Assembly: GCF_016097555.1 (NCBI RefSeq)
Contig: NC_054706.1
Span: forward strand, 54,210,009 to 54,274,008
Direction of reading: 5' to 3'
Source of the DNA: Gigantopelta aegis
Taxonomy: Eukaryota > Mollusca > Gastropoda > Neomphalida > Peltospiridae
DNA: 64,000 nt
Shown here: piece by piece, positions 3,583-62,300 of the stretch
Numbering within the stretch: the stretch's first letter is position 1
Layout: each line of letters starts with the position of its first letter
The notes under the pieces: generated by a model
What the model was told of the DNA's origin: nothing
Databases searched by the model: none
What the model saw: only the letters and a program-made list of their open reading frames with translations
Position numbers and translations under genes: made by a program

Positions 3583-4018
3583 TGTATGTTCCTCTAACGC
3601 TGCTGTGGAACGGCCTGAGTGTAATAAAGTTCTGTATATTTATTATGTATGTTCCTCTAACGCTGCTGTGGAACGGCCCGAGTGTAATAAAGTTCTGTAT
3701 ATTTATTATGTATGTTCCTCTAACGCTGCTGTGGAACGGCCCGAGTGTGATAAAGTTCTGTATATTTATTATGTATGTTCCTCTAACGCTGCTGTGGAAC
3801 GGCCCGAGTGTGATAAAGTTCTGTATATTTATTATGTATGTTCCTCTAACGCTGCTGTGGAACGGCCCGAGTGTGATAAAGTTCTGTATATTTATTATGT
3901 ATGTTCCTCTAACGCTGCTGTGGAACGGCCCGAGTGTCATAAAGTTCTGTATATTTATTATGTATGTTCCTCTAACGCTGCTGTGGAACGGCCTGAATGT
4001 AATAAAGTTCTGGTCTGT
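3583..4018. repeat. 63-bp minisatellite array 2 (7 units)
   Basis: Same unit as array 1, starting at 3608, 3671, 3734, 3797, 3860, 3923 and 3986. The first and last are variants (CCTGAG instead of CCCGAG). It begins abruptly after CAGACTGT, the point where the second copy of the segment continues into unrelated sequence at 5757. Confidence 0.96.
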
Positions 4019-10614: not shown

Positions 10615-10945
10615 AAAAGGTTATTCGTGTATTCTATTTCAAATATTCTTTGTTTATCATGATAGTTTAAAAAAAGAAACGAAAATGTCTTATGTATGAA
10701 AGGAAACTTTTTAATGTTTAGTAAAAAATGTCTGTTGTACATATTATATAGAGTAATAGGTCATCATTGTGAATATATTTGTTAGATTCTCATTTTAAAA
10801 TGTGTGGTCTGTTTCATATTTTTTGTTTACCATGGTAGTTTCTTAAGAAAATAAAAATGTTTTATCTATAAAATGCAACTTTTTAATGTTTATTAACAAC
10901 GTCTGTTGTATATATAAGAGTAATAAGCCATCGTAATATATCATA
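10615..10945. repeat. Imperfect tandem duplication, about 165-185 bp
   Basis: Two divergent copies (about 10635-10785 and 10815-10945) share ACTTTTTAATGTTTA, GTCTGTTGTA and GAGTAATA in the same order. AT-rich, function unknown. Confidence 0.65.
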
Positions 10946-12167
10946 TAATACGCAAGCCCATTTTAACAGCTCCCGGTGCTTCTGATCGCTTCTCCTCTGT
11001 TGGTCTGCACTGCCAACCGCCATCGTCATACTTGGTCGAAGCTTCTGAAAACTATATTGACAGGATATTTGACACGGGTATAATTCCTGACACCTGGTTA
11101 AATGGTATCATTTTACCTATATACAAAAACAAAGATGATGTATCATTACCTGTGAACTATCGACCTATCACTATACTCAGCTGTCTGGGTAAATTATTTA
11201 CCTCCGTTTTAAATAACCGTTTAACGAAGTTTATTGAAAATAATAGATTGCTCTCTGAAGTGCAAGCTGCTTTTAGAAGAGGCTATTCTGTGACTGATCA
11301 TTTATTCACGTTACATTCTGTTATTGAGTATATGAGATGTCGCAATAAGAAATTATTCTGTACATTTATTGATTTTTGTAACGCGTTTGACCAAGTTTGG
11401 AGATCTGGACTTTGGTTTAAGGTTTTAAATATTGGTATATCTGGTAAATGTTTTAATGTTATTTTCAGTATGTATCAACACATCAAATCCTGTGTAAAGT
11501 TTGATGGCAAAATGTATGAGTCCTTCTTGTGTCGATCTGGAGTAAGACAAGGAGAAAATCTGTCTCCCTTATTGTTTGCCATTTATCTTAATGATCTTGA
11601 AAGCTATTCAAACAATGAACATTGTAATGGTGTGAAAATAGATACTAATGCTTTAATAGACTTTCTTAAAATACTTATTCTACTTTATGCTGATGACACT
11701 GTTATTGTTGCTGAAAATATTTTTGATATGCAAAATTCGATAAATGTATTCCATAATTATTGTATTAGACGGAAACTGACTGTTAATACAGCAAAGACAA
11801 AAGTTGTTGTTGTTGGTCAAAAGGTCGTAGACCTCCTATGTTTACTATAGATAATAGCATTGTAGAAATAACTGATTGTTATAAATACCTTGGATTGTAC
11901 TTTTCAAAGAACCACATATATTGTCTAGTAAAGAAACGTATCGTGGAACAAGCCACAAAAGCCATGTTTTATGTTTTTGCTTAAATCTCGAATATGTAAC
12001 CTCAGTTTGCCTATTGATTGCCAACTTAAACTGTTTGACCAAACCATTTTACCTATTTTATTATACGGTTGTGAAATATGGGCTTTTGAAAATTGTTCTA
12101 TTATCGAACGTGTTCATACTAGGTTCCTGAGAAGTATTCTTGGCGTAAAACGTAGTACACCTTTGTA

Positions 12168-24802: not shown

Positions 24803-29298
<4,496 letters not shown>

Positions 29299-37795: not shown

Positions 37796-38302
37796 ATCAC
37801 ATGTGAATTATAATGCAGTTTCTATATAGCCTGCATTTTGTTAGTCATTCATAAATATTTAATAGAGAATACTGAAACAATAAGCTCCAAATTAAAAAAC
37901 AAAATAAACCAATTTTTAAAACTGTTATATAAAATAAACTAAAATGAATGAACTTGAACACAAGTAAAAGTGTAGATAAAGAAAATTATGAATTAAAAAT
38001 ATCCAATTACATTGAGCACTGCACCAAGAAGATAACAAAACATTAATTAATAACAAGTAAATAATAATAATAATAATAATAGACGACAATATGAATACGA
38101 TGATTATTTCACTAAAATACTGACAAATGACACAAATATTTTTTGTTGCCTGAAAAAGAATTGGCTCTCTGGAGTTGATACCAGTCTAGATGTTTGTACT
38201 CCATGCAATAAAAGTATTAAAACACACTAACACCATTTTCCTGGCAACACATTTTTATATAAATACATGTATTTGACATAAAGCATTTCTGTGTGGTGGG
38301 AT
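37796..38302. other. AT-rich intergenic, nothing recognised
   Basis: Contains a short AAT run near 38062. No gene. Confidence 0.55.
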
Positions 38303-40510
38303 ATTTTAAAAAAACCAAAAATTCCCATAAAAAAACCCCCCAAAAAAAATTTTAATTCCCAAATTTTTTAAAAAAACCAAAAATTCCCATAAGGGGCCCC
38401 CAAAAAAAATTTTAATTCCCAAATTTTTTTAAAAAAACCAAAAATTCCCATAAAAAAACCCCCCAAAAAAAATTTTAATTCCCAAATTTTTTTTAAAAAA
38501 ACCAAAAAGGTTCCCCTTTTTTAAAACCTAAAAACCGTTTTTCCCCAAATTTTTAATTTAAAAAATTTTTAAAAAATTTTTTGGTCCAATTAAAAAACAA
38601 GTTAACTTTCCAAATTTTCCCTTTAAAAAAAAACCCATAAAAAAAATTAAAAAAAAAAAAAATTTTTTTTGGTTAATTTTTAAAAAATTTTTCCCCCTTT
38701 TTTTTTTAAAAATTTTTTAAAAAAATTTCGTCCAATTCCTAACAAAAATTTTTTTTTTTAAATTTACAAAAAAGTCCCCCGGTTTTTTAAAAAAACCCCA
38801 ACCTTTTAAAACCCAAATTTTTTTTTAAAATGTTAAAATTAATTTTAAAAAATGTTTTCCCAATTTAAAAATTTAATTTTTATTTTTTTTTTAAAAAAAA
38901 AAATTTTTAAAAAAATTTTTCCCAAAATTTAAAAACCTTATTTCCCTTTTTAAAAAAAAAAAAAATTTAAATTTAAAAAAAAAAACCCCAAAACCCAAAA
39001 AAAAAAAGGGAAAAAGGTTAAAAAAAAAGAAAAAAGGGTTTTCCCCCAAAAAAATTTTACCCCAAAATGGAATTTTTTAAATTAAAAAAAAAACCAAAAA
39101 ATTTTTTTAAAACCCATTTTTTCCCATGGAAAAAAATTTTGGAAAATTTTTTTTTTTTTTTTTTTAAAAAAATTTTATTATTCCCAAGGGTTTTTAATCA
39201 AAAAAAAATTTCTAAATTTAAAAACCTTTAAAAACCCCTTTTAATTTTTAAAAAAAAAATTAAAAAAAATTTATTAAAAAATTTTTTTCCCCAAAAACCC
39301 CGGGGTTTTTAAATTTTTGGAAAATTTAACCAAAAACCCAAAATTAAATTAAAAATTTTAAAAAATTTAAAAAATTAAAATTAAAAAAAAAAAAACAAAA
39401 AAATTAAAAAAAAAAAAACCCAACCAAAAAAATTTTTGGCCCGGGTTTTTTAAAATTTTTTAAAAAAAATTTAATTTGGGTTTTTTTTTAAAAAAACCAA
39501 ACCCCATTCCCTGGGTTTTTGGTTTAAAATTTTAAAAACATTACAAAAAAAATTTTAAAAACCTTTTTAAAAAATTAAATTTCCCGGGAATTTTGGAAAA
39601 ATGGGTTTTTTTAAAAATTTGGGGGTTTTAATTTAAAAACCGGGAAAAAAAGGGGGGAACAAATTTAAAAAGGGTTTTTCCCAACCTTTGGCCCCCTTTA
39701 AAAACCGTTAAAAAAGGGCCTTTAAATTTAAAACCCAAAAAAAAAAAATTGGGAAAAAAAAAATTTAAAAAATTTTTTTTTTTTTTTAAAATTTTAAATT
39801 TTAAAATTTTTAAAGGGGTTTTTTTCTTTTAATAACAAATTTTTAATTCATTAAAAAAAAAACCCCTTTTTGGATTTCCAAAGGGGAAACCCCCAAAAAA
39901 ATAAAAAAGGCCCCAAAAAAATTTTAAAAAAAAAAAATTTTTTTTTTTTAAAATTTTAAAAAAAAATTAAAATGTTTAAAAAAAAGGGAAAATTGTTTTT
40001 TAAAAAAAACAAATTTTTTTTTTTTTAAAAAAAAAAAATTTAAAAAAAAAAAATTAAAACCCTTTTAAAATTTAAAAAAATTTTCCAAAAACCCCAAAAA
40101 AATTAATGAACAAAAAAAAAAGGGGGAAAAAAAAGGGGTTTCCCCCCCAAAATTGGCCCCCGGGCCCTTCCCAAAAATTTTCCCCAAAACCGGGGGGGGC
40201 CCCCCCCCCCAAAAAAATTTTTCAAAACCATTTTTTCCAAAAAAAAATTAAATTTTAAAATTTTGGGTTTTTTTTTTTAAAAATTTTTTAAAAAATTTTC
40301 AATGGTTAAAAAAAAATTTTTTTAAAAATTAGCCCCGGCCCCCAAAACCCTTTTTTTTTTAAAAAACCCCACCCCCCCTTTTTTTTAAAAATTTTAAAAA
40401 TAAATTTTTGGAAACAAATTTTAAAGGGGTGGTTTTCCCAAACCGGGCCCCCAAAAAAAAATGAAAATTAAAAAGAAATAAATAAAATTTAAAAATTTTA
40501 AAAAAAGGGG

Positions 40511-40551
<41 letters not shown>

Positions 40552-41305
40552 ATTAAAAGGGTTTTTTAAAATTTTTTTTAAAAAAAATAATTTTCAAAAT
40601 TTTTCTTTTTTGGGTTTTGGGAAAAAAAAAGGGGGGTTTTGGGGGTGGAAATTTTTTTAAAAAACCCAAAAGAAAATTTTTAAATCCCCTTTTTTTAAAA
40701 TTTAAAACCTTTAAAAAAGAAAAATTTGGGTTTTGTTTTTTGGGGTTTGGGTTTTAAAAAAGGGGGAAAAAAAAAAAAAAATTTTTTTTTTCCCCCCCGA
40801 AATTTAAAACCACCCTTTTAAAAAGGGGGCCCAAAAAGAAAACCCAAAAAAAAATTTTTTAAAAACCCCAAAAAAAATTTTTTTTTTAATTCCCCCTTTT
40901 TTTGGAAAAATTTTTAAAAAACCCCCAAATTTTTTTTTTTTTTTTAAAACCCAAACAAATAAAAAAAAAATTTTCCCGGTGGTGGGGCCCCCAAAAAAAA
41001 ACCCAAAGGGGAAAACCCAAAAAAAAAAAAATTTTTTTTCCCCCTTTCCCTTTGAAATTAAAAAAAAATTTTTAAACCCAAAAAACCGGGCCAAATTGGT
41101 TAAAAAAAATAAAAACCTTTTTTCCGGTATTTAAATGGTTTCCAAAAATTATAAAAAAAAATTTTTAAATGGGTTTTTGGGGTTTCCAGGGGGGGGGGGT
41201 TTTTAAAACCGGCCCCGGGGGCCCCCGGTTTAAAGGGGCCGGGGCCCCCGGGGCCCCCAACCCGGGGGCCCCCCGAAACCCTTCCCAAAAAATTTTCCCC
41301 AAAAA
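38303..41305. other. Homopolymer-inflated, probably corrupt consensus
   Basis: About 3 kb made almost wholly of runs of 2-10 identical bases (AAAA, TTTT, CCCC, GGGG), unlike both flanks. The left part contains a similar block three times (about 38300-38510: ACCAAAAATTCCCAT, AAAATTTTAATTCCCAAATT). Dinucleotides such as CA, TG and AC inside mixed words are rare. This looks like a failed long-read or gap-filling consensus rather than natural DNA. Open frames inside it (40804-41357) should not be treated as genes. Confidence 0.75.
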
Positions 41306-43045: not shown

Positions 43046-43210
43046 ACACGATACTGTGTCTTCTGTGTGTGATAAAAAGGTGAAATTTTATAAAAATGGA
43101 AATCAGTTTTAAAATGAAAAAGAAGAAATGTTTTTTTTAGTAGTTGTATACAAATGTTTGATTAATGTCTAGGAACACAGAATGACTCAAATTGTTAATC
43201 AGAAGCATAC

Positions 43211-43431
43211 CTGTATAAAAAATATCCGCGGTTTTCCTTTTAGCGTGGGGCAGTTCTTGTCATTAAACATCTCAAGTATGTTGCGAGTCAGCACGGGCCT
43301 GTAGTCTGTCCCCAGTATGAATTCTTCCCTTCTCTTACGATTGTTTTCATCTGGATCGAAGAAATATTCATCTCCATGTGACGAGACTGCACAGACAAAA
43401 CAATCGGCTTTCTTGTAATTCTCCTTGGAGA
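43211..43431 (-). CDS. Caspase B exon 4 (catalytic His)
   Basis: Residues 107-180: ENYKKADCFVCAVSSHGDE, the insertion, then LEMFNDKNCPTLKGKPRIFF. The acceptor is TTTATTGCAG; the donor CAG|GTATGC follows the Gln of the expected QACRG. Confidence 0.9.
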
Positions 43432-46400
43432 CTGCAATAAAGATAAAAAGATAAAGTTTGTTTTGCTTAACGACACCACTAGAGGACATTGATTTATGAA
43501 TCATCAGCTATTGGATGTTAAACTTTTGGTAATATTTTAGAGAGGAAACCCACAACATTTTTCTATTAGCAGCAAGGGATCTTTTATATGTACCATTCCA
43601 CGGACAGGATAGACCATACCACGACTTTTGATAAACCAGTCGTAATGCACTGGCTGGAATGAGAAATAGCCCAATGGGCCCACTGACAGGGATTGACAGT
43701 GCATCAGGTGAGCGCTCTACCATTGGGCTATGTCCTACCCCTTACAGTAAAGAAGAAACAAGCAGCATTTGAAAATATTAGTATTTCAATACACACAGCT
43801 ATTTAGATGGATGGATGAAAATAAGGAAGTAGGGGTTGATGGATGGATGGACAGACAGATGGATTGTATGGATGAAGTGGCCGAGTGGATTAACAAATGG
43901 ATGGTTGAATTAATGGACAAATGGATGGTTGAATTAATGGATGGATAGACGGATGGTTGAATGGATTGATGGATTGATTGAGGGATGAACGGACGGATGG
44001 TTGAATGGATTGATGGTTGACTGGATGGATAGATGGATGAGTAGACATGATTAATGGATGGATGGGTGAACGAATGGATGTGTTGGTGCATAAACTGATA
44101 ACTGAAAGAATAGATGGATGATGAATGGATTGCCATACAGAGAGAGTATAGATGGATAGATATTGGTGGGTGGGTTGGTAGATGAATAGACAGACATGTG
44201 CATAGATGGATGGATAAATAAAGGATGGATGGATGGATGAATGAATGGGTCAATGTTTTTTGGGTAAGTGGATGGGTGAATATATGGATGATGGATGGAT
44301 AGAGGGATGGATTACAAAGTGACTTGGATAGATAGAGGATAGATATATGGATAGATGGATGGATGAATGGACCAATTGTTAAATGGACAGAGGAAAGCCT
44401 TACAAAGAAAGCGACTTACTCTTGTAGAAAACATCTGTAATTCTGGCTGCAGTTAAGTCTTGATGATATCTTATGTCAGTAAATCCAAACTGACTGAAGA
44501 CCTGCGTCAGATTACTTCCATCAACATCGGCACCTTCCCGGGGCGACTTGTTCTCAAACGTCACGTTGTTGATAATCACTGCAACGCCACGTGAAGGGTA
44601 GCTGAAGTCATATTCATCAAGATCGTCATAAACTACGGGGTCAGGACAGCTTGTGAATGGTCTACAAAACAAATAAATCCAAATGTTTCTATCACCAAGA
44701 CATCACATATCACCAACTTTGATGGTTCAATGGATGCAACTTGCAACAGAAAATAAACTATTGTTCAGTTAACACTTAGTTTTTAAAATTTTAGTACTGT
44801 CTTGTCTGTGGAAAAATGGATATAGAAAATCTATTGTTGCTTTGTCGGTAGCAGTAGCCTATAAGAGCTCTGTCCATCTTTCTCGGTCTTTCTCTCTCTC
44901 TTTGTCAGTCTCGCTCAGTCCATCTCTCTCTCTCTCTCTCTCACCCTCTCTGTCGATCTCTTACCTGTCATTCTCTTTCTTTCTGTCCGTCCGTCCGTCC
45001 GTCCGTCCCTCCCTCTCTCTCCCTCTCTCTCTCTCTTTCTCTTTCTCTCTCTGTCTCCTGCTGCAATTTTCTAAAGAACTGCCATGGGTGAAACAGCCTA
45101 CCAACAGAAATATTTTGCCTGCTTAAGGCTATTATTTTTTTGACTGAACGGTTATTCTGCTGCATGTAGACATATTTCAAATGTACAAATGTTAAATATT
45201 GGCAGATAATGTACACTAGGTACATTTTGTCATTGTTCAGGATTTCTACATACGGCAATTTATATCTCAGCGACTGCAACTGCTGTCGATGCCATCATTA
45301 AGTTCAAGTTCAATGGTATAATTCTGACTCTTGAGAGAAAACCAGCTACATTTTTCCATTAGTAGCAAGGGATGTTTTATATGCACTTTCCGACAAAACA
45401 GCACATACCATGGAAGCACCTCCGGTGAGCAGTCCCAATTGAGCTAAATCCACACTCCCCCAGTAGTTACTGGGTTCACATCCCAGCACCAGCTCCCACC
45501 CACAGTGTGCTTCAGGGCCCCATGGTGACGTGAAAGACTTCTGCACATACATCTCTCACTAACAATTAACCCACTGTCCTGAACATAAAGCTGAAGAGTG
45601 TGCCCAGAACAGTGTGCTTGAACCTTAATTTAATAAATTTAAAGTTTGTTTTGTTTACCAACACTGCTAGAGCACATTGATTTATTAATCATCTGCTATT
45701 GGATGTCAAACATTTGGTAATTTTGACAGTCTGAGAGGAAACCTACTACCGCTAGTAGCAAAGGATATTTTATATGCACCAACCCACAGACAGGATAGCA
45801 CATACCACAGCATTTGATATACCAGTAGTGGTGCACTGGCTTGAAAAAAAAATAGCCCAATGGGCCTGCCAACACATCAAATGAGTGCTTAACCACTGGG
45901 CTATGTCTTACCCCCCCCCCCCCCCCCTTAATTAGATATAGGCATGGAAATCAAGTTGAAATGAAATGTAATGTTTCAACTTATTACCTTGATACTTGAT
46001 TCCATACAGCTTTTAGTTTGGGGCCAATGAAATCTTTCTCTGAAAAGAACGAAAATGTCAGAATTATTTGTATATCATCACTTGTAAATGATTTTAATTT
46101 ATTAAAAGATATTTTACAAAATAAAAACAAATTTTTATGAGCATGAAAAAATATTCTAATACTGAAGAATATGATAGGCTGATCTAAGAAGTTTTAATTG
46201 GATTTTTTTTTGGGGGGGAGGGGGAGCAGGTGCCTTCATGAAAGATTATTAAAAGGATATACCCTAGTTTCAGCCCATGAAAATTAACACTAAGTTTATT
46301 TAATCTACAAACCTGTAACACATTTGGATAAAGTTACAACTGAGTGAAAAATGAGTCTGTGACTTTGAAATGGAAAAATACCCTCTAAAAACTCGAACTC

Positions 46401-53394: not shown

Positions 53395-56300
53395 GTAGGT
53401 TGTGTGTCTTTTTTGTTCCATGACTTAGGCCAAAACATTGTTACTTTGATTATGACATTGAACGATTGACCATGCCACAATCTCGACTCGAGAGTCACTC
53501 AAATTCACTGACGTGACTGAGTGATTTGCTGATCTCAAAGTAGCATAGGCTACCCGTAACACAATAAAAACGATTCACCGAGTGTGATGAACAATGCCGT
53601 TTTATGTTTTATCAACAGATAGGCACCTGTCACTGTTGGATAGATAAAGACTGAAATGTAAAATTAAACAGCAAAGTTGAAATCAGCCAAAAGCTGTTTT
53701 CTCGTGCACGGTTCGCGCTAGCCCGAGTACTCTGACTGTAAGAGAGCTAGACGGATGTTTGGACATAAACACGCTCTCATTACAGTCAGAGACCAACCTA
53801 TGTCTTTTTTTGGCAATTCCTGACTACCAAACGGTAGGCAACGAGTCCCGCTCTAATACCACAACAATCCTATGTTTGACGTCAAATACCTTTACATCAA
53901 TCATTTTCGAGTTAAGTGATACAAAAAAAATCCACATATTAATCACTAATACACTTACTACAGAAAAAAACCCGACAGCACCCACATTCAGCTACGCTTC
54001 GTGACACTCCGTCGCAACAATTGCAAAGCTCGGCGATCTATTTCGAGACTGGGCGATTCCGCCTTGTGCAGCAGTTACAGGGGTCATCTCATAAGAGGAG
54101 GCAGTACGTAGAACATACTTTTGCCGTATCCTGTTGATAACACCCCAAATGTATCCTTCAAATTCAAAATGGAATCAATAATGTGTAATTGTTTTGGTTT
54201 AATGACGTAATGAAATCCAAATTCATCCAAAACGGCATTAGCCAACTCTTCCATGTTGTAACTTCGCTTGATATGAGACGGCCCCTGTAACTGCTGCACA
54301 AGGCGGCATCACCCAGTCTCGAAATAGATCGCCGAGCTTTGCAATTGTTGCGACGGAGTGTCACGAAGCGTAGCTGAATGTGGGTGCTGTCGGGTTTCTT
54401 TCTGTAGTAAGTGTATTAGTGATTAATATGTGGATTTTTTTGTATCACTTAACTCGAAAATGATTGATGTAAAGGTATTTGACGTCAAACATAGGATTGT
54501 TGTGGTATTAGAGCGGGACTCGTTGCCTACCGTTTGGTAGTCAGGAATTGCCAAAAAAAGACATAGGTTGGTCTCTGACTGTAATGAGAGCGTGTTTATG
54601 TCCAAATGTCCGTCTAGCTCTCTTACAGTCAGAGTACTCGGGCTAGGTTCGCGCAATCAACATCCGATTTGTTGTTGTTTGCTTGTCGTTCATTTGTGAG
54701 GTTTTTCTTCGCAGTTCGTGAACATTTTCATTAACAATAAAGTTCAGACAAGTAAGTATCTCCATACAAAACGTTACAAACCCTTAAAACCAATAAGTCT
54801 TACGATATCTAGAGAGGACAGAACAGTTGGAACATGCCCAGGAGAGGTGAAAGGAACGCACCCCAAGTCTGTGTGCACTCTGGGAAATTTGTCGTGACAT
54901 AGGCATTTCTGTGCTTCGAGCGACATCTACCGGTGACATCAGAATACTAACTTTCAAAATTATTTCAAGTAATTGGGTCACGGGGATTCCCATGGTATTT
55001 ATCGATATAAAACCTGCGTTTTCACTCTATTTTATAAAAACGTGATCTAAGCGTGTTACAGTTTTGTAGATTAACCAACATTAGAATTAATTTTCGCGGG
55101 CTAAAACTAGGGCGAGCGACTTTAAGATGACCAGAAACACATTGAATATACAGTCACTGATATTATAAAAAAAAGTATATTTGATGTGTAATTTTAGTCA
55201 TTCAAAGATTTTATTAGTCTGAAACCCTGTACTCTTGTCAAGTTTGCTATTAGAATGTTTGATGTTTAATGTTTTAGATCAAGTTGATGCTGCAGCGGGT
55301 GGAAAAGGTCAGGTTGATGAAACAGATGCTAGAGGAACACGAAGTGGTGCAGGAGATATTGGGTAAGTAATAATTAGCATAAACTGTAAAAAAAAACCTC
55401 AACTGTCCTAATCCCATTCATTTAAAGGCAGATAAAGGAATTATCTATCCTTAGTTGGTAACCATTTATAAAGGTTTTCGGAATTTCTTTTTTTTTTACA
55501 TTATTATTTATATTAAAATAACAATTTACTTACATTTTCTTCCTTAGAATATATGAATATCTCTGTACCGTACATTTCTGGTCATTGTAATGTTTTGTAG
55601 TATGTATCAATATTGATTTTTGTCCAAAATAATTTCATATATATATATTTGTTATGTCTTCTAATGGCCAAACGAAATTTGAAATAACATGTAAATCATC
55701 AAAAAGTTATTCAGAGTTCCAAATGTATTTATTCTTATAATGCAATATATTTAAAACATGTGATGGTTAGATAGTGTTTTAAAACAGGAAAAAAACCCTA
55801 TTTATCAAGTTCTTTCTTACTAACAACTAACTACTAACTTATTGTCCTGGACAAACAGGACAGATAACTCAGGGTTTTTCCCCCAGGACAGTGAACTTGA
55901 ACCATGAAATGAATTAATTACGTAAGTTAAAATACAGGTAAATGTGTATATGTCTACGGGAAGATGCATGTAAAATATCCCTTGCTGCTGTAAGACTTAC
56001 TATAAGGAAGCAGCAGGGGCCTAATTCACTAAACTCTCGCAACTTTGCGATTTCGCAGTGCAATGCTAAAAGACTTGCAAAGAGGATGCTTTGTTGTCTA
56101 GTAGAGCCTAAGAGACCTTTGTGAATTAGGCCCCAGGTTTCCTCACTTTCTCTCAACAACCAAATGTCAAAATATCGACATGTGAAGACACCAAACAGTG
56201 ATGTCATTAAAAATAAAAATAGCAGGTGAAAATCAAATAATAGGCAGCCATTAATCAATAAAAAGTCGACAAGCATTGTTTATTGGAAGTTCGATACCCA

Positions 56301-59300
56301 GCGACAATTGATTCGATAGCAGGCGAAAAATTGCCGGGTGCCGGCTATTAATGACATCCCTGCCAAATAGCTGTAATTTAAAATGTGCCGAAGTGGTCTT
56401 AATAGCAACCCCAGATGAAAAATCTAAACTTAGAGCAATAAAACTAGATGCAAATGGTAGATCTTAAAGAGATCTTTCCTAAACAGTTTAAATTATCTTG
56501 GTAGCTCTATTGGAACCAAAGTTACATAGAAAGTAGGTGTCGGAAATCTAACCATTTTTAGAAATCGTGATGTACATTATATTAAGTAAACTAAAGGCCA
56601 AAGACGGCACCGGTGCCTAAAATTATTAAGACTTTTCCCTTTAATTTGCTTAATAACTGACAAATCATAATAAAATTTAGCAGTTTAGTGTCCTTTTTCC
56701 TGCTGAATCCATTTCTAGACATTAAAATTAAATAACTTGAATAGGTATATGTGAAAAAAGGCAAAATATAATTTGTCAAAATTATATGAATACACATTTG
56801 ATGAAAAATACTCGGTTACTGTTTCTCTCCTTTTATATCCATTCATTTGTTACACCAAGAAAGTAATGTTCTTTCCTAAATATGACAATTATATGTGATA
56901 TATACAATACATTGTATTTAGTAAAGCAATTTTCAGTTCTGTTATGTACATTTATTCAGTGGAAAAATCATCTTTCAAGAACTAGTGACCAGTGTGTTTT
57001 GAAAATCCATGTCATTCTTCGATATGACCAGTTACTTGACTAAGATATTTCAGATAATTATTTAAAATATAGCTGACTGAACCGGACGAATAGTTTTTGT
57101 ATTTCTTGATGGTTTGGAATAAACTACTGACGTCCAGAGCCAACACAATCTGGGATGAATCCTTTCTGAATCACAAGTGTCACAACCTTTTTCCGTTTCT
57201 CTGTTATTTCATGATCTACCAGTTTATTTGTTTTTAACAGTTTATTATGATTATACTGAAGCAAATTATATAATTTCACATCGGTACCATCATCAAAATC
57301 AGTTTGTACATCAACAGTAACAGTTTGAAAACCAGGCACAACACATGTAGATATTTCCACAGGATCTACAATTTTGCGTTCATTAAGCACAATATCTTTA
57401 TTCGTAGTCGAAGAATTGTGTGTGGAAACACCAACATTCAAAGTGACAGGCAGTGCAAGTGGTCTGGTCATGGTCACAGGAGGTTTAAATGGTCTTATCA
57501 GCAGGTCTGCAACAGTCTTGTAACCTGGTACCTTTTTCTTTACGCTTAGTTTTTTCTTAACATCACAAAGACGAATAAGTTTTGAACAAACTGATTTTAC
57601 ATTGGAGCCAGTAAACTGCGGATCTAACTTTGGTAATAAATGGACATGGTCAAGAAGACCTTTATTTGATTGTTCAAAGAAATATTTTAATTCGAGAACA
57701 ATTCCATTTGATAGCTCTGAAATAGGCTGAATTTCTTCATAGTCCAGAAGTTTTGCTTTTGTTAAGTCAACCTGCAGACATAATGGTCCAGGATATTCCA
57801 TCTTGCATCATGAATAATTTGGGTAATATATTACATGTAAGAACATGCTTATCTTGGCCTTTGATGAGAATTATGGCAAAGCAAGCTGGGAAAAAAAATA
57901 TATATATATATATATATATATAGGCCTACATACAGAAATATATTATTACATACCTGATATAAGACTCTTAAGCAAATATTCCTTTTCAGGGATCAAAGTT
58001 AACATTTTTGCCTAGGAGTACTGTGCACCGTAACTAAGAAACATAAGAGCAAAACTAGAGCTGAGCGGTGTTGAAATTTGAGGTTCGGTATCAAGATCAT
58101 TAATTTTTTGTGTGATTTACCTCAATATCGGTAGGGTATTCAGTATTGACACAATACCAATATTATATAGATACCAATATTGAGCCGTATTTTCGGTATA
58201 CTTGGCTTTAAATGCATTCTTGAGTTAAGTCTCACCTGCTAATTTCATCTAAATAAAATTAACTTCTATAGACAAGGCTCTCATCTGATTTATGCCCAAC
58301 CCATTTTGCGTTCGTCAGATATATTGTTAGTGCTTTACTAAATGGCGGAGGAAACATTTTTCAATGATGAAATTTCAGTACGGTAAATCGGTATTGACAT
58401 GATACCGATACCGAATGGTATATACGTTATACCACCTAGCTCTAAGCAAAATACTTATTTTAGGAGCAAAACTTTCATTGTAAAAAATAAAAGTAGTTTA
58501 TGATTTTTACTGAACATTCAAGACTGTAAGCACATGTTAAGATATTTTAAAATAGCTAATATTTTATAATATACAGTATTTCCTTGAAAATTATTCAAAA
58601 GTGGTTAATTTAAAATAGACAGGATGAGCTGTGGCTAATTCGAGACCTTCTTTCATTTCAGTCAGACAGAGTATGGGTTTGCAACGGGTGAGTTACCAGT
58701 AGAGAAGGAGTCGTCTCTGTTGTCAGACGAATACAAGATGAACTATCCGAACAGAGGACTGGCAGTGATAATCAACAATCGAGACTTCGCATCACACACG
58801 AATATGGGAACTCGCACAGGGACAGATCAAGATAAAATTAATATTAACAATCGTCTGCGCGTGTTGGATTTCACGACGGAAATCTATGACAATATGTCTA
58901 TTAACGATATGAAGATGCTAATGAAGAAGGGTGGGTACATTTATTTGAAAAGCAGAAATTTCTTTTGTAGGTTTTTGTTTTCTTAGGAAGTACATTTCTG
59001 TCTCTACCCATTTAGTTGTCATTGGTACTGTACACAATCTAAGCTTTGGCATGGATGGTAATGCTGTTTACTCAGATACTGTTTTGCTGTGTATTCAAAT
59101 GCTGTCTTGCTGTTTATTCAAATACTGTCTTGCTGTTTATTCAGATGCTGTCATGCTACTAAACAATGCATTCACATCATCAAGGGAACATATATTTTAA
59201 GCATCTTAAACCATTGATGTGTGCAGTGCAGATTTTGTGCATTTCCATCAATAGTCCTATTCAGTTAACACTGATAACCCCCCATCAATGAACACATTCC

Positions 59301-62300
59301 CTGCACCAGAACAGAGTTTCAGATACACTCTTGTGTTGGTCAACTCTCAGACATGCACAGTGCTCTCGACAGGAAGCAAATCATCTGGTTGATTGAAAAA
59401 ACAAAGCTGTCATTATCAATGTCATATGTTACTGTAACAGTGGCAAATTGATTAATAAACATTTGAAATTGATGGGATTTTTGGGGGCTTATTTTCATAT
59501 TTTTAGTTTATTTGTCTTGTTGGACAAGTTGTTATATATAGAGAATAACTAGTTAATGATGTAGGATATGAGCTTTATCCTGTAAAGGTAGGAATGGAAA
59601 ATTCTGAGATTCTTGCTAAGCGCACTCTTCAATTGGCTTGAAGAGTTTAAAGCTGATATCCTGCGTCATTAACTAGTTATTATTTTTAATATGTGATCCA
59701 TAAAAATTAAGCTGAAAAGCTATTATTTCTGTTATTTTAGATAACATTGTACGATGATCTAGAAGTCAAATGAATGATTTTGTAATGAATCTATGCATGT
59801 GACGTCATGTGCGTGTTAATAGAGAATAACTAGTTCATTACGTCGGATATCTGCTTTATCCTGTGAAGGTAAGAATGGAAAATTTCACGAGGCTCTGCCG
59901 AGTGGAATTTCTCATTCGGCCTGTACCTACCAGCCTTATGTCCAATGGCTTAACTACGACGCCACCGAGGCCGGTGTTATGGTACTAATTTTGTCTTACT
60001 ATTGTTTTCTATTAAAATCTTTTCAGTCACTAATATTGAATGCTTGTATTTTTTAGCTGGCAAACTAGATCACACACGAAATGACTGTTTTGCCTGTGTG
60101 ATTCTCTCTCATGGTGAGGAAGGCACAGTGTATGGAACCGACGGTCCCGTGGAAATTAAAGACTTGGTGGAGCCTTTCAAGGGACATAACTGTCCATCTT
60201 TAGCCGGAAAACCTAAGTTATTTTTCATTCAGGTGAGAAGCTGTTTTACAAGAGTACAAAGTATTTTCTTTCTTTTTATATAAGAATTGTTTGTCGTGTT
60301 TTGTGAGTTTATCAAGGTAAAACAGTCACAAATTATAGATAATCAGGGCGACCAACTTTCCGGAATTTTTCATTCATATCCGGAATTCCGGAATTAATGC
60401 CAAATATCCGGAATTTTTTCAAATTCGTTATCATTATTTTTTTTGGAAGCAACCATTTCTGAATATATTTAAAATTTTCTATATTTTTAAATCTCGAGTT
60501 TATTAAACAGAGCTTATCATTCTGCCTTCTCCATTGCAACCTGAACTTGGTATTATCGACTGGTTAATGCTATTACTAAGACGTTTGTCTATTGGCTGTA
60601 TTTGTCAACAGCCGACCAATGAAACTGTTTTTGACAATCAAGTAAACTGAAGCCATGTATGAAATTTGTCTTTCTTGTTATGTAGTTTATGTATTCATTT
60701 TAAAGATATTTCAAATATCATATAGTAATTACTACGGGACAGACATCGGTTCTATGGCGATGCATGCAACTTCGCCACTGTGTGTAAAAACCTGAACATA
60801 TAACAGAACACTTGCGATCGTACGAAAACAAAAGAAACGGATCCACAATTCTCTTCTTATTTTCGTATGCTTTCATGTGCAACATTTCACTAAATATTAT
60901 TTGTCTACCAGTAATCTGTGACACATTCATGACATTAATATTAATTAATTAATATACCTACCAATTTTGTTTTATTCAAGTACGTTAAACTATAAAAAAA
61001 TTAAATTTTTACAAACCATTGTTAGATTTTTCCGTGAAAAGTGCTGCACTAATAGTAAAGTAAGCGTAATGCAGAACGATAGCCAGTCTTAATGTGGGTA
61101 CCAGACGTTTCGTCCCCGATTCAGTTAACCACAAATTGGTTCGACCCCACTGATGAAATAGTGCAAATGTTGCAATGTACCTACATAAAAATAACATTGG
61201 TCCCAAGTTTGTCACTTTATTACTAATCTGTAGGTGGGAGTGAAATTGTACTACACAATTTGCTAATAAAGTGGGGCTTTGGGGGGGGGGGGGGGTGATG
61301 ATTTTTGGTGTTTGGTCTGTGTGTGTGTGTGTGATAATGTTGTTAATTGCTGTACTAGGTGTAGTAACTTTATTTACACTGGTGAATATATTTAGCATGT
61401 TTTCCTAGACAAGCCATAAAGTAGGGCTATGCTTAAAAAGGAAGTAGAATAATTCTGCCACTTATGTGGATTGATTTATACTTTTATTATTGAATACATA
61501 AATATTAACATTCCAATAAATAATTTAAAAAAAATATTGTTATGTATCTCTTTGGTTGTTATTTTAAAAATATGTCAAATATGGCGCTGTTTAAATTATT
61601 TTTATATTTTTGAAAATGGCGTTCGCATGCTTAAAAATTAAAATACCAGAAAATTCCGGTAAAATATTTCCATTAGGTTGGTCGCCCTGTAAAATCGCGT
61701 AGCGTAGTGAAGTGATTTTATACAATTTTTTTGACTGTTATACATCGATAAATTTGCAGAAAATTACAAGCAATTCTTATAATTACAAACAGCACAACTT
61801 ATTTAGTTAAAAACTACACATAATTCATAAATCAGTTTCTAACGTTCTTCCCATGATCTACTTTACGTAATGACGTTATTTTCGAGTTTAAAATCCTTTA
61901 CTTCGCAACGCAATTTTATGCAGCTTGTGACAGTTGTAAATTCATTAAAATAAATGACAAACAGATTTTATATAATTACAAAGATAGGAGCTTGTGCAGA
62001 GGGTGGGTTATGGCAGTCGAACCATCCCCCTTGATCAAGCAAATATTCTCTTTTTTGCAATACTTTTCTGGGGAAGCATGTATTAACCCCACATAAATTT
62101 TGCTAGCCACAGTTTAGCCCCCACCCACTTCTAAAATGTATGCACAAGCACCTGGACACACCATATTTAGTTAAAATACACTTAAATCAGCTTCTAGTGT
62201 CCTTTCCATGACCTGTTTTACGTAATGACGTCCTAGCTGGCATAATTACGTCATTTTTTGCGGTTTATCGAAGGATAACATTTTCTTCGATGTCCTCCAA

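Follow-up and report, generated by a model that had tools for sequence, protein, structure and literature searches.

The window analysed here is a stretch of 64,000 nt of Gigantopelta aegis DNA, and a 927-bp element in it is flanked by two copies of GGTTCGCGC, a perfect 9-bp duplication (Table 1). Self-alignment of the two inverted arms of the element gave 97.867% identity over 375 aligned columns, with 8 differences, and a second self-comparison recovered the identical pair of arms as blocks of 212 and 170 nt. The preliminary description of this DNA had put the arms at about 375 bp with about ten differences and had noted the perfect flanking duplication, and both readings are borne out. The hairpin near the left end has a DNA fold with z = -4.93, and none of 200 shuffles was equally good.

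Table 1. Features of the window element, in window coordinates, and copies of the composite unit, in coordinates of the named loci.
Feature	Position	Strand	Basis
Left target-site duplication, GGTTCGCGC	53710..53718	.	Sequence read; 9-bp duplications family-wide
Left terminal inverted arm, starts TAGCCCGAGTACTCTGACTG	53719..54093	+	97.867% identity to right arm
Left subterminal hairpin, 18-bp stem, begins 11 nt inside the end	53730..53791	+	DNA fold
RecQ-like helicase N-terminal fragment, 56 residues, Walker A TGYGKS	54087..54254	-	Translation; profile and structure-database matches
Loop separating the arms	54094..54271	.	Sequence, self-alignment
Right terminal inverted arm, the helicase-start-side end	54272..54645	-	Self-alignment
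Right-arm subterminal hairpin, mirrors the left one	54573..54634	-	Self-matches 54573-54591 and 54617-54634; no separate fold
Right target-site duplication, GGTTCGCGC	54646..54654	.	Sequence read
Terminal 46-bp end of the window element family, TAGCCCGAGTACTCTGACTGTAAGAGAGCTAGACGGACATTTGGAC			
Copies of the composite unit	L047:4529-7786; L048:4290-7551; L005:1-1881 with L064:42-86		

The loop is open on the minus strand and encodes an uninterrupted piece of a RecQ-like helicase with the motif TGYGKS, as had been claimed at the outset (genome position C8:54264095-54264262:-). Its ATG (54254-54252) sits 17 bases inside the inner edge of the right arm and 391 bases inside the end of the element, and its final 7 bases fall in the left arm, with the TGA (54086-54084) directly after. 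The fragment matches the RecQ profile TIGR00614 with E = 3.7e-8, a score far under the whole-protein cut-off, as a fragment would be, and the RecQ structure 4tmu of the PDB with 7.6e-6; the match to Pfam DEAD (1.1e-4) is under the cut-off. By these matches the fragment is like the N-terminal portion of RecQ helicases, where Walker A is located. This truncated helicase piece probably has no function. Prokaryotic and phage collections, neither of which consists of animal genomes, gave weak RecQ matches at best, and a viral collection, again not of animal genomes, gave no match to the fragment.

Elsewhere in the window there are five exon-like frames with matches to PF00656, the caspase domain (E from 5e-8 to 1.7e-17), at 25920-26216 (+), 43199-43507 (-), 44400-44702 (-), 58639-58986 (+), and 59954-60283 (+), and they are likely a caspase gene cluster. 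An open frame at 10927-11850 (+) with a reverse transcriptase domain (PF00078, 6e-33) is probably a LINE fragment. A 63-bp tandem repeat forms two arrays, at 1-1786 (28.4 copies) and 3583-4012 (6.8 copies). The region 38001-41130, where GC is as low as 20%, has A- and T-runs and imperfect short repeats and may be poorly resolved sequence.

The G. aegis genome (1.149 Gb, 5216 contigs) was searched with the arm, the whole element, and the helicase piece. The arm search gave 42 matches, with 40 scored of 1535 first-look candidates, and 35 of the 40 scored matches of the whole element, from 1363 candidates, span its full length of 927 bp at 93-100% identity. The fragment is contained in every one of the 150 scored matches of the helicase piece, from 699 candidates, with residues 1-56 covered at 98-100% in short open frames of 59-149 aa; about 30 of these were fetched and the others are known as match rows, so that candidates are not equated with confirmed copies and a genuine exon may be among these rows or the unscored candidates. 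A complete pair of ends is missing in 7 of the 38 loci L002-L039. The family has the termini TAGCCCGAG, and a typical member is 946-949 bp long, with a 21-bp stretch in the helicase-side arm that is present in 25 of 28 aligned copies and absent from the window copy and two others. These 28 copies differ from the majority sequence by 0.67% on average (175 of 26,013 bases); two of the 30 listed elements, L006 and L007, in whose loops the motif is not evident, were left out of the alignment. This low divergence shows that the burst of the family is recent. The family is a MITE by its short, non-autonomous copies, which are numerous, nearly identical, and bounded by inverted ends. L011 and L043 have an additional 450 bp, which looks like another inserted repeat.

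The target-site duplications were read in the 42 fetched copies that have two ends and whose flanks differ from one another. An exact 9-bp duplication is present in 32 of them, an exact 10-bp duplication in two (L007 and L046), and a duplication with a single mismatch in two (L015 and L030). Six rows have none. Three of these, L005 and two rows of L047, belong to the composite unit (see below); in L050 3184-4915 and L051 6475-7741 one end has been paired with the end of a neighbouring element; and L042 is a two-ended copy plainly without a duplication. When the pairing of flanks was shuffled, the mean number of exact duplications was 0.86, nearly all of it attributable, by our estimate, to pairs left in place by the shuffle. 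Since 32 were observed, the duplication around the window element is not due to chance. The earlier claim was right in that a non-autonomous DNA transposon carrying part of a helicase has recently moved here. Long palindromes are a recognized class of artefact, and a false palindrome made in assembly or cloning would also look like two inverted arms. However, the copies lie on many contigs, with different flanks and their own exact duplications, which refutes this explanation and leaves it a negligible probability.

Is the helicase fragment a captured gene? The preliminary description had proposed capture of the Pack-MULE type, and the 9- to 10-bp duplications and long inverted repeats of the family do fall within the MULE pattern of 9-11-bp duplications with such repeats. 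However, the helicase motif is kept in 37 of the 42 fetched two-ended copies, and at the helicase end the arm is entered at the identical point in 49 of 51 occurrences in the fetched DNA, some loci of which overlap. In the two exceptions, L040 and L062, the helicase end runs into another sequence. Furthermore, the exact pattern GTACTGCCTCCTCTTATG followed by a non-A base has no match in the genome. The shared junction and this absence show that capture did not take place separately in each copy; one founding event is behind the junction of helicase and arm. The Pack-MULE title should therefore be dropped. Several loci with shared arms and differing loops would, according to that description, have supported capture; most examined copies have one loop, and a related element at L047 and L048 has the same ends and another interior in which no gene was recognized. 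L040 and L062 carry an identical alternative sequence directly after the helicase piece and are perhaps a small sub-family. Their long open frames (C4:65628800 and C489:1419) were considered as a true helicase gene and rejected, as they are family copies with other adjoining sequence.

We suggest that the window element is one copy of a high-copy, recent MITE family, which most likely arose from an AcademH-type transposon by internal deletion. The ancestor would have had a RecQ-like helicase gene starting a little inside one terminus and reading inward. A deletion or template switch would then have joined the first 55-56 helicase codons to an inverted copy of that end, giving the 375-bp palindrome. 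The defective element would have retained the ends recognized by the transposase, and it could have spread by means of enzymes supplied in trans by a full-length relative. The duplications of 9 or 10 bp in the family have the length reported for AcademH, in which it has been linked to the encoded helicase (PMC10045372, available part). AcademH and KolobokH are both named among helicase-bearing transposons in the available part of PMC10799480, and an amplification of Academ in bivalves is reported in that of PMC10294476. Of the superfamily II helicase of AcademH, the family has the 56-residue RecQ-like N-terminal fragment; the full gene was not seen among 150 scored of 718 candidates from a combined query, made of the fragment and a second half taken from another locus. 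This query also found no longer element among the same scored candidates: 149 of the 150 matches end at residues 56-62, and the remaining one is the source locus of the second half. The preliminary description had stated that the fragment would be the element's own gene if all copies shared the loop and lay within longer elements with a full helicase. The common loop is there, and the longer element did not appear among the 150 scored. Nor did any locus examined have these termini together with a transposase or a longer helicase. Because the full-length partner was not found, we infer the AcademH membership, along with mobilization in trans and fold-back formation of the 375-bp arms.

Pairs of RecQ and DUF6589 genes are present elsewhere in the genome. 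DUF6589 is presumably a marker of Academ-type transposases; a literature search for DUF6589 together with transposon gave no match. The RecQ search of the genome gave 43 matches (41 scored of 666 candidates), and all 14 control genomes match as well, as RecQ would. The DUF6589 search gave 36 matches, with all 71 candidates scored, and none in the 14 controls. Eight of the RecQ matches lie within 10 kb of eight of the DUF6589 matches, at six places, while 2000 random shifts gave a mean of 0.033 and a maximum of 5. The two genes face each other at four of these places (C7:1.11, C6:61.12, C8:79.62, and C15:32.74 Mb), are rearranged at C13:11.39 Mb, and are 9 kb apart at C7:1.38 Mb. Several distinct RecQ families occur at L053, L056-L061, and L063, some facing DUF6589 genes, which suggests that the genome has helicase-bearing transposons of various kinds.

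In two of these loci, L056 and L058, the RecQ ATG lies 207-208 bases inside one end, and a DUF6589 frame was found in their relative L057. As far as the sequences tell, an ancestor of the window element would be laid out in this way. The copy at L058 3390-4722 has lost part of its interior by deletion; its inverted ends are 64 bp long, and its subterminal hairpin has z = -6.22, compared with -4.93 for the window element, so that the end hairpin is strong in both families. The L058 family was rejected as the full-length partner, as its ends are not homologous to those of the window element, and a clear 9-bp duplication is lacking at L058. No end sequence of the window element recurs in the RecQ/DUF6589 regions L059-L061 and L063, the last being one side of its element, and the other fetched RecQ-bearing transposon-like loci share neither its termini nor a close helicase sequence. 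Its termini were likewise not seen at the DUF6589 and RecQ pairs, where the fetched stretches are mostly partial.

A different origin of the fragment would be that a Mutator-like or Foldback-type element captured a helicase exon of the host or of a transposon once, and that the chimera was then amplified. The Mutator/Foldback element Tm1 of nematodes also shows 9-bp duplications and long inverted arms, according to the part of PMC3169594 available, although its arms, unlike those of the window element, contain tandem sub-repeats. The fragment has about the extent of one exon of the probable host RecQ gene at L054, where the exon ends ..LPALLSQ and then GT, at most about three codons from the end of the fragment, and the related element at L047 and L048, with the same ends and another interior, also speaks for such an event. 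However, no splice signals were seen by eye at the borders of the fragment, most examined copies have a single loop, and no near-identical parental or longer helicase gene was seen among the scored candidates (150 of 699, 41 of 666, and 150 of 718). Furthermore, the probable host RecQ exons of L052 and L054 are distant, with 48-50% identity over 22-27 residues (58% over 12) and 33% over 54, so that neither of these genes is a likely source of a recent capture. The RecQ frame at C6:61.12 Mb is split (L063 969-1244, 1552-1746, and 2075-2800), which suggests introns. This split frame and the exon end in L054 leave room for an exon having been captured long ago, whether its source was a host gene or another transposon. 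Overall, we consider a single capture unlikely.

It is less probable still that the family is a MITE of another superfamily with 8- to 10-bp duplications, such as Merlin, hAT, P, Zisupton, or an undescribed one, carrying its own helicase. The superfamily is unproven because the transposase was not found. However, hAT elements make 8-bp target duplications, as opposed to the 9 and sometimes 10 bp of this family, and it is AcademH that combines a helicase with duplications of 9-10 bp, in the available text of PMC10045372. The family is a likely animal example of helicase-bearing transposons shrinking into high-copy miniature elements. The observation, striking when it stood alone, now belongs to a transposon burst that is well documented but of an ordinary kind.

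Of the further findings, a composite unit is the most interesting. At its origin, L048 on contig 10, two family members with their own exact duplications, ACCACCTCT and CTCAGGCGA, flank 1131 bp of other DNA. At L047, 8.8 kb from L048, the whole unit is found again, 3258 bp long and 99.5% identical, between copies of a new duplication, GCCTATAGC, and of the older duplications just the inner halves are left. At a third site, on contig 12, the unit is inverted, and L005 aligns with it at 99.0% over 1872 bp, as far as the edge of the locus. The near end is followed there by ATTAAATGC, and an 86-base stretch covers the far end, where the initial TAGCCCGAG comes after ATTAAATGC; this unit is known from its two end stretches, with 1344 unread bases between them. 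The new 9-bp duplications around the whole unit at two sites show that its outermost ends have moved as one at least twice, and this is a plausible way for such elements to transport other DNA. We tentatively propose that the helicase-linked miniature elements could act as an engine of composite transposition, in which two nearby copies carry the intervening DNA and the 3.3-kb composite is now mobile. This would be a genuine route of DNA capture, differing from the Pack-MULE route first proposed. The related element at L047 and L048, of 1183/1184 bp, has the helicase-side arm and only 65 bp of the other arm, and its translated interior gave no recognizable gene. Such a short arm is consistent with shorter ends in the ancestor, although the 65-bp limit falls within the hairpin. 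Outside the composite unit, a minus-strand frame of L047 near 2713-3478 matches Hisat_C, the histidine N-acetyltransferase C-terminal domain (PF24066, 3.2e-15).

How does the family compare with known systems? Plant Pack-MULEs have a gene fragment between inverted repeats and 9-11-bp duplications, and the window element is likewise a gene fragment between inverted repeats. However, Pack-MULEs have captured many different genes, whereas this family keeps one fragment in most examined copies. KolobokH transposons make TTAA duplications, as opposed to the 9 bp of varied sequence in the window family. They too are DNA transposons with a RecQ helicase, and in the available part of PMC9587614 they are reported from fungi only. 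The Foldback/Mutator element Tm1 resembles the family in its long inverted arms, mostly 9-bp duplications, and occurrence in animal genomes (PMC3169594, available part). Its arms are built of tandem sub-repeats, whereas a tandem-repeat scan reported no array within 53719-54645, and Tm1-A has a Phantom-like transposase in place of a RecQ fragment, as described in the same part of that source. The window element has a helicase fragment only, and no transposase was found with its termini, in which it differs from AcademH, to which it is likened by description. AcademH elements are helicase-encoding DNA transposons of animals and fungi with 9- or 10-bp duplications (PMC10045372 and PMC10799480, as far as available). 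Finally, like MITEs, the family is short and non-autonomous, exists in numerous nearly identical copies, and has both inverted ends and target duplications, and it differs from them in retaining 56 helicase codons and long, 375-bp arms.
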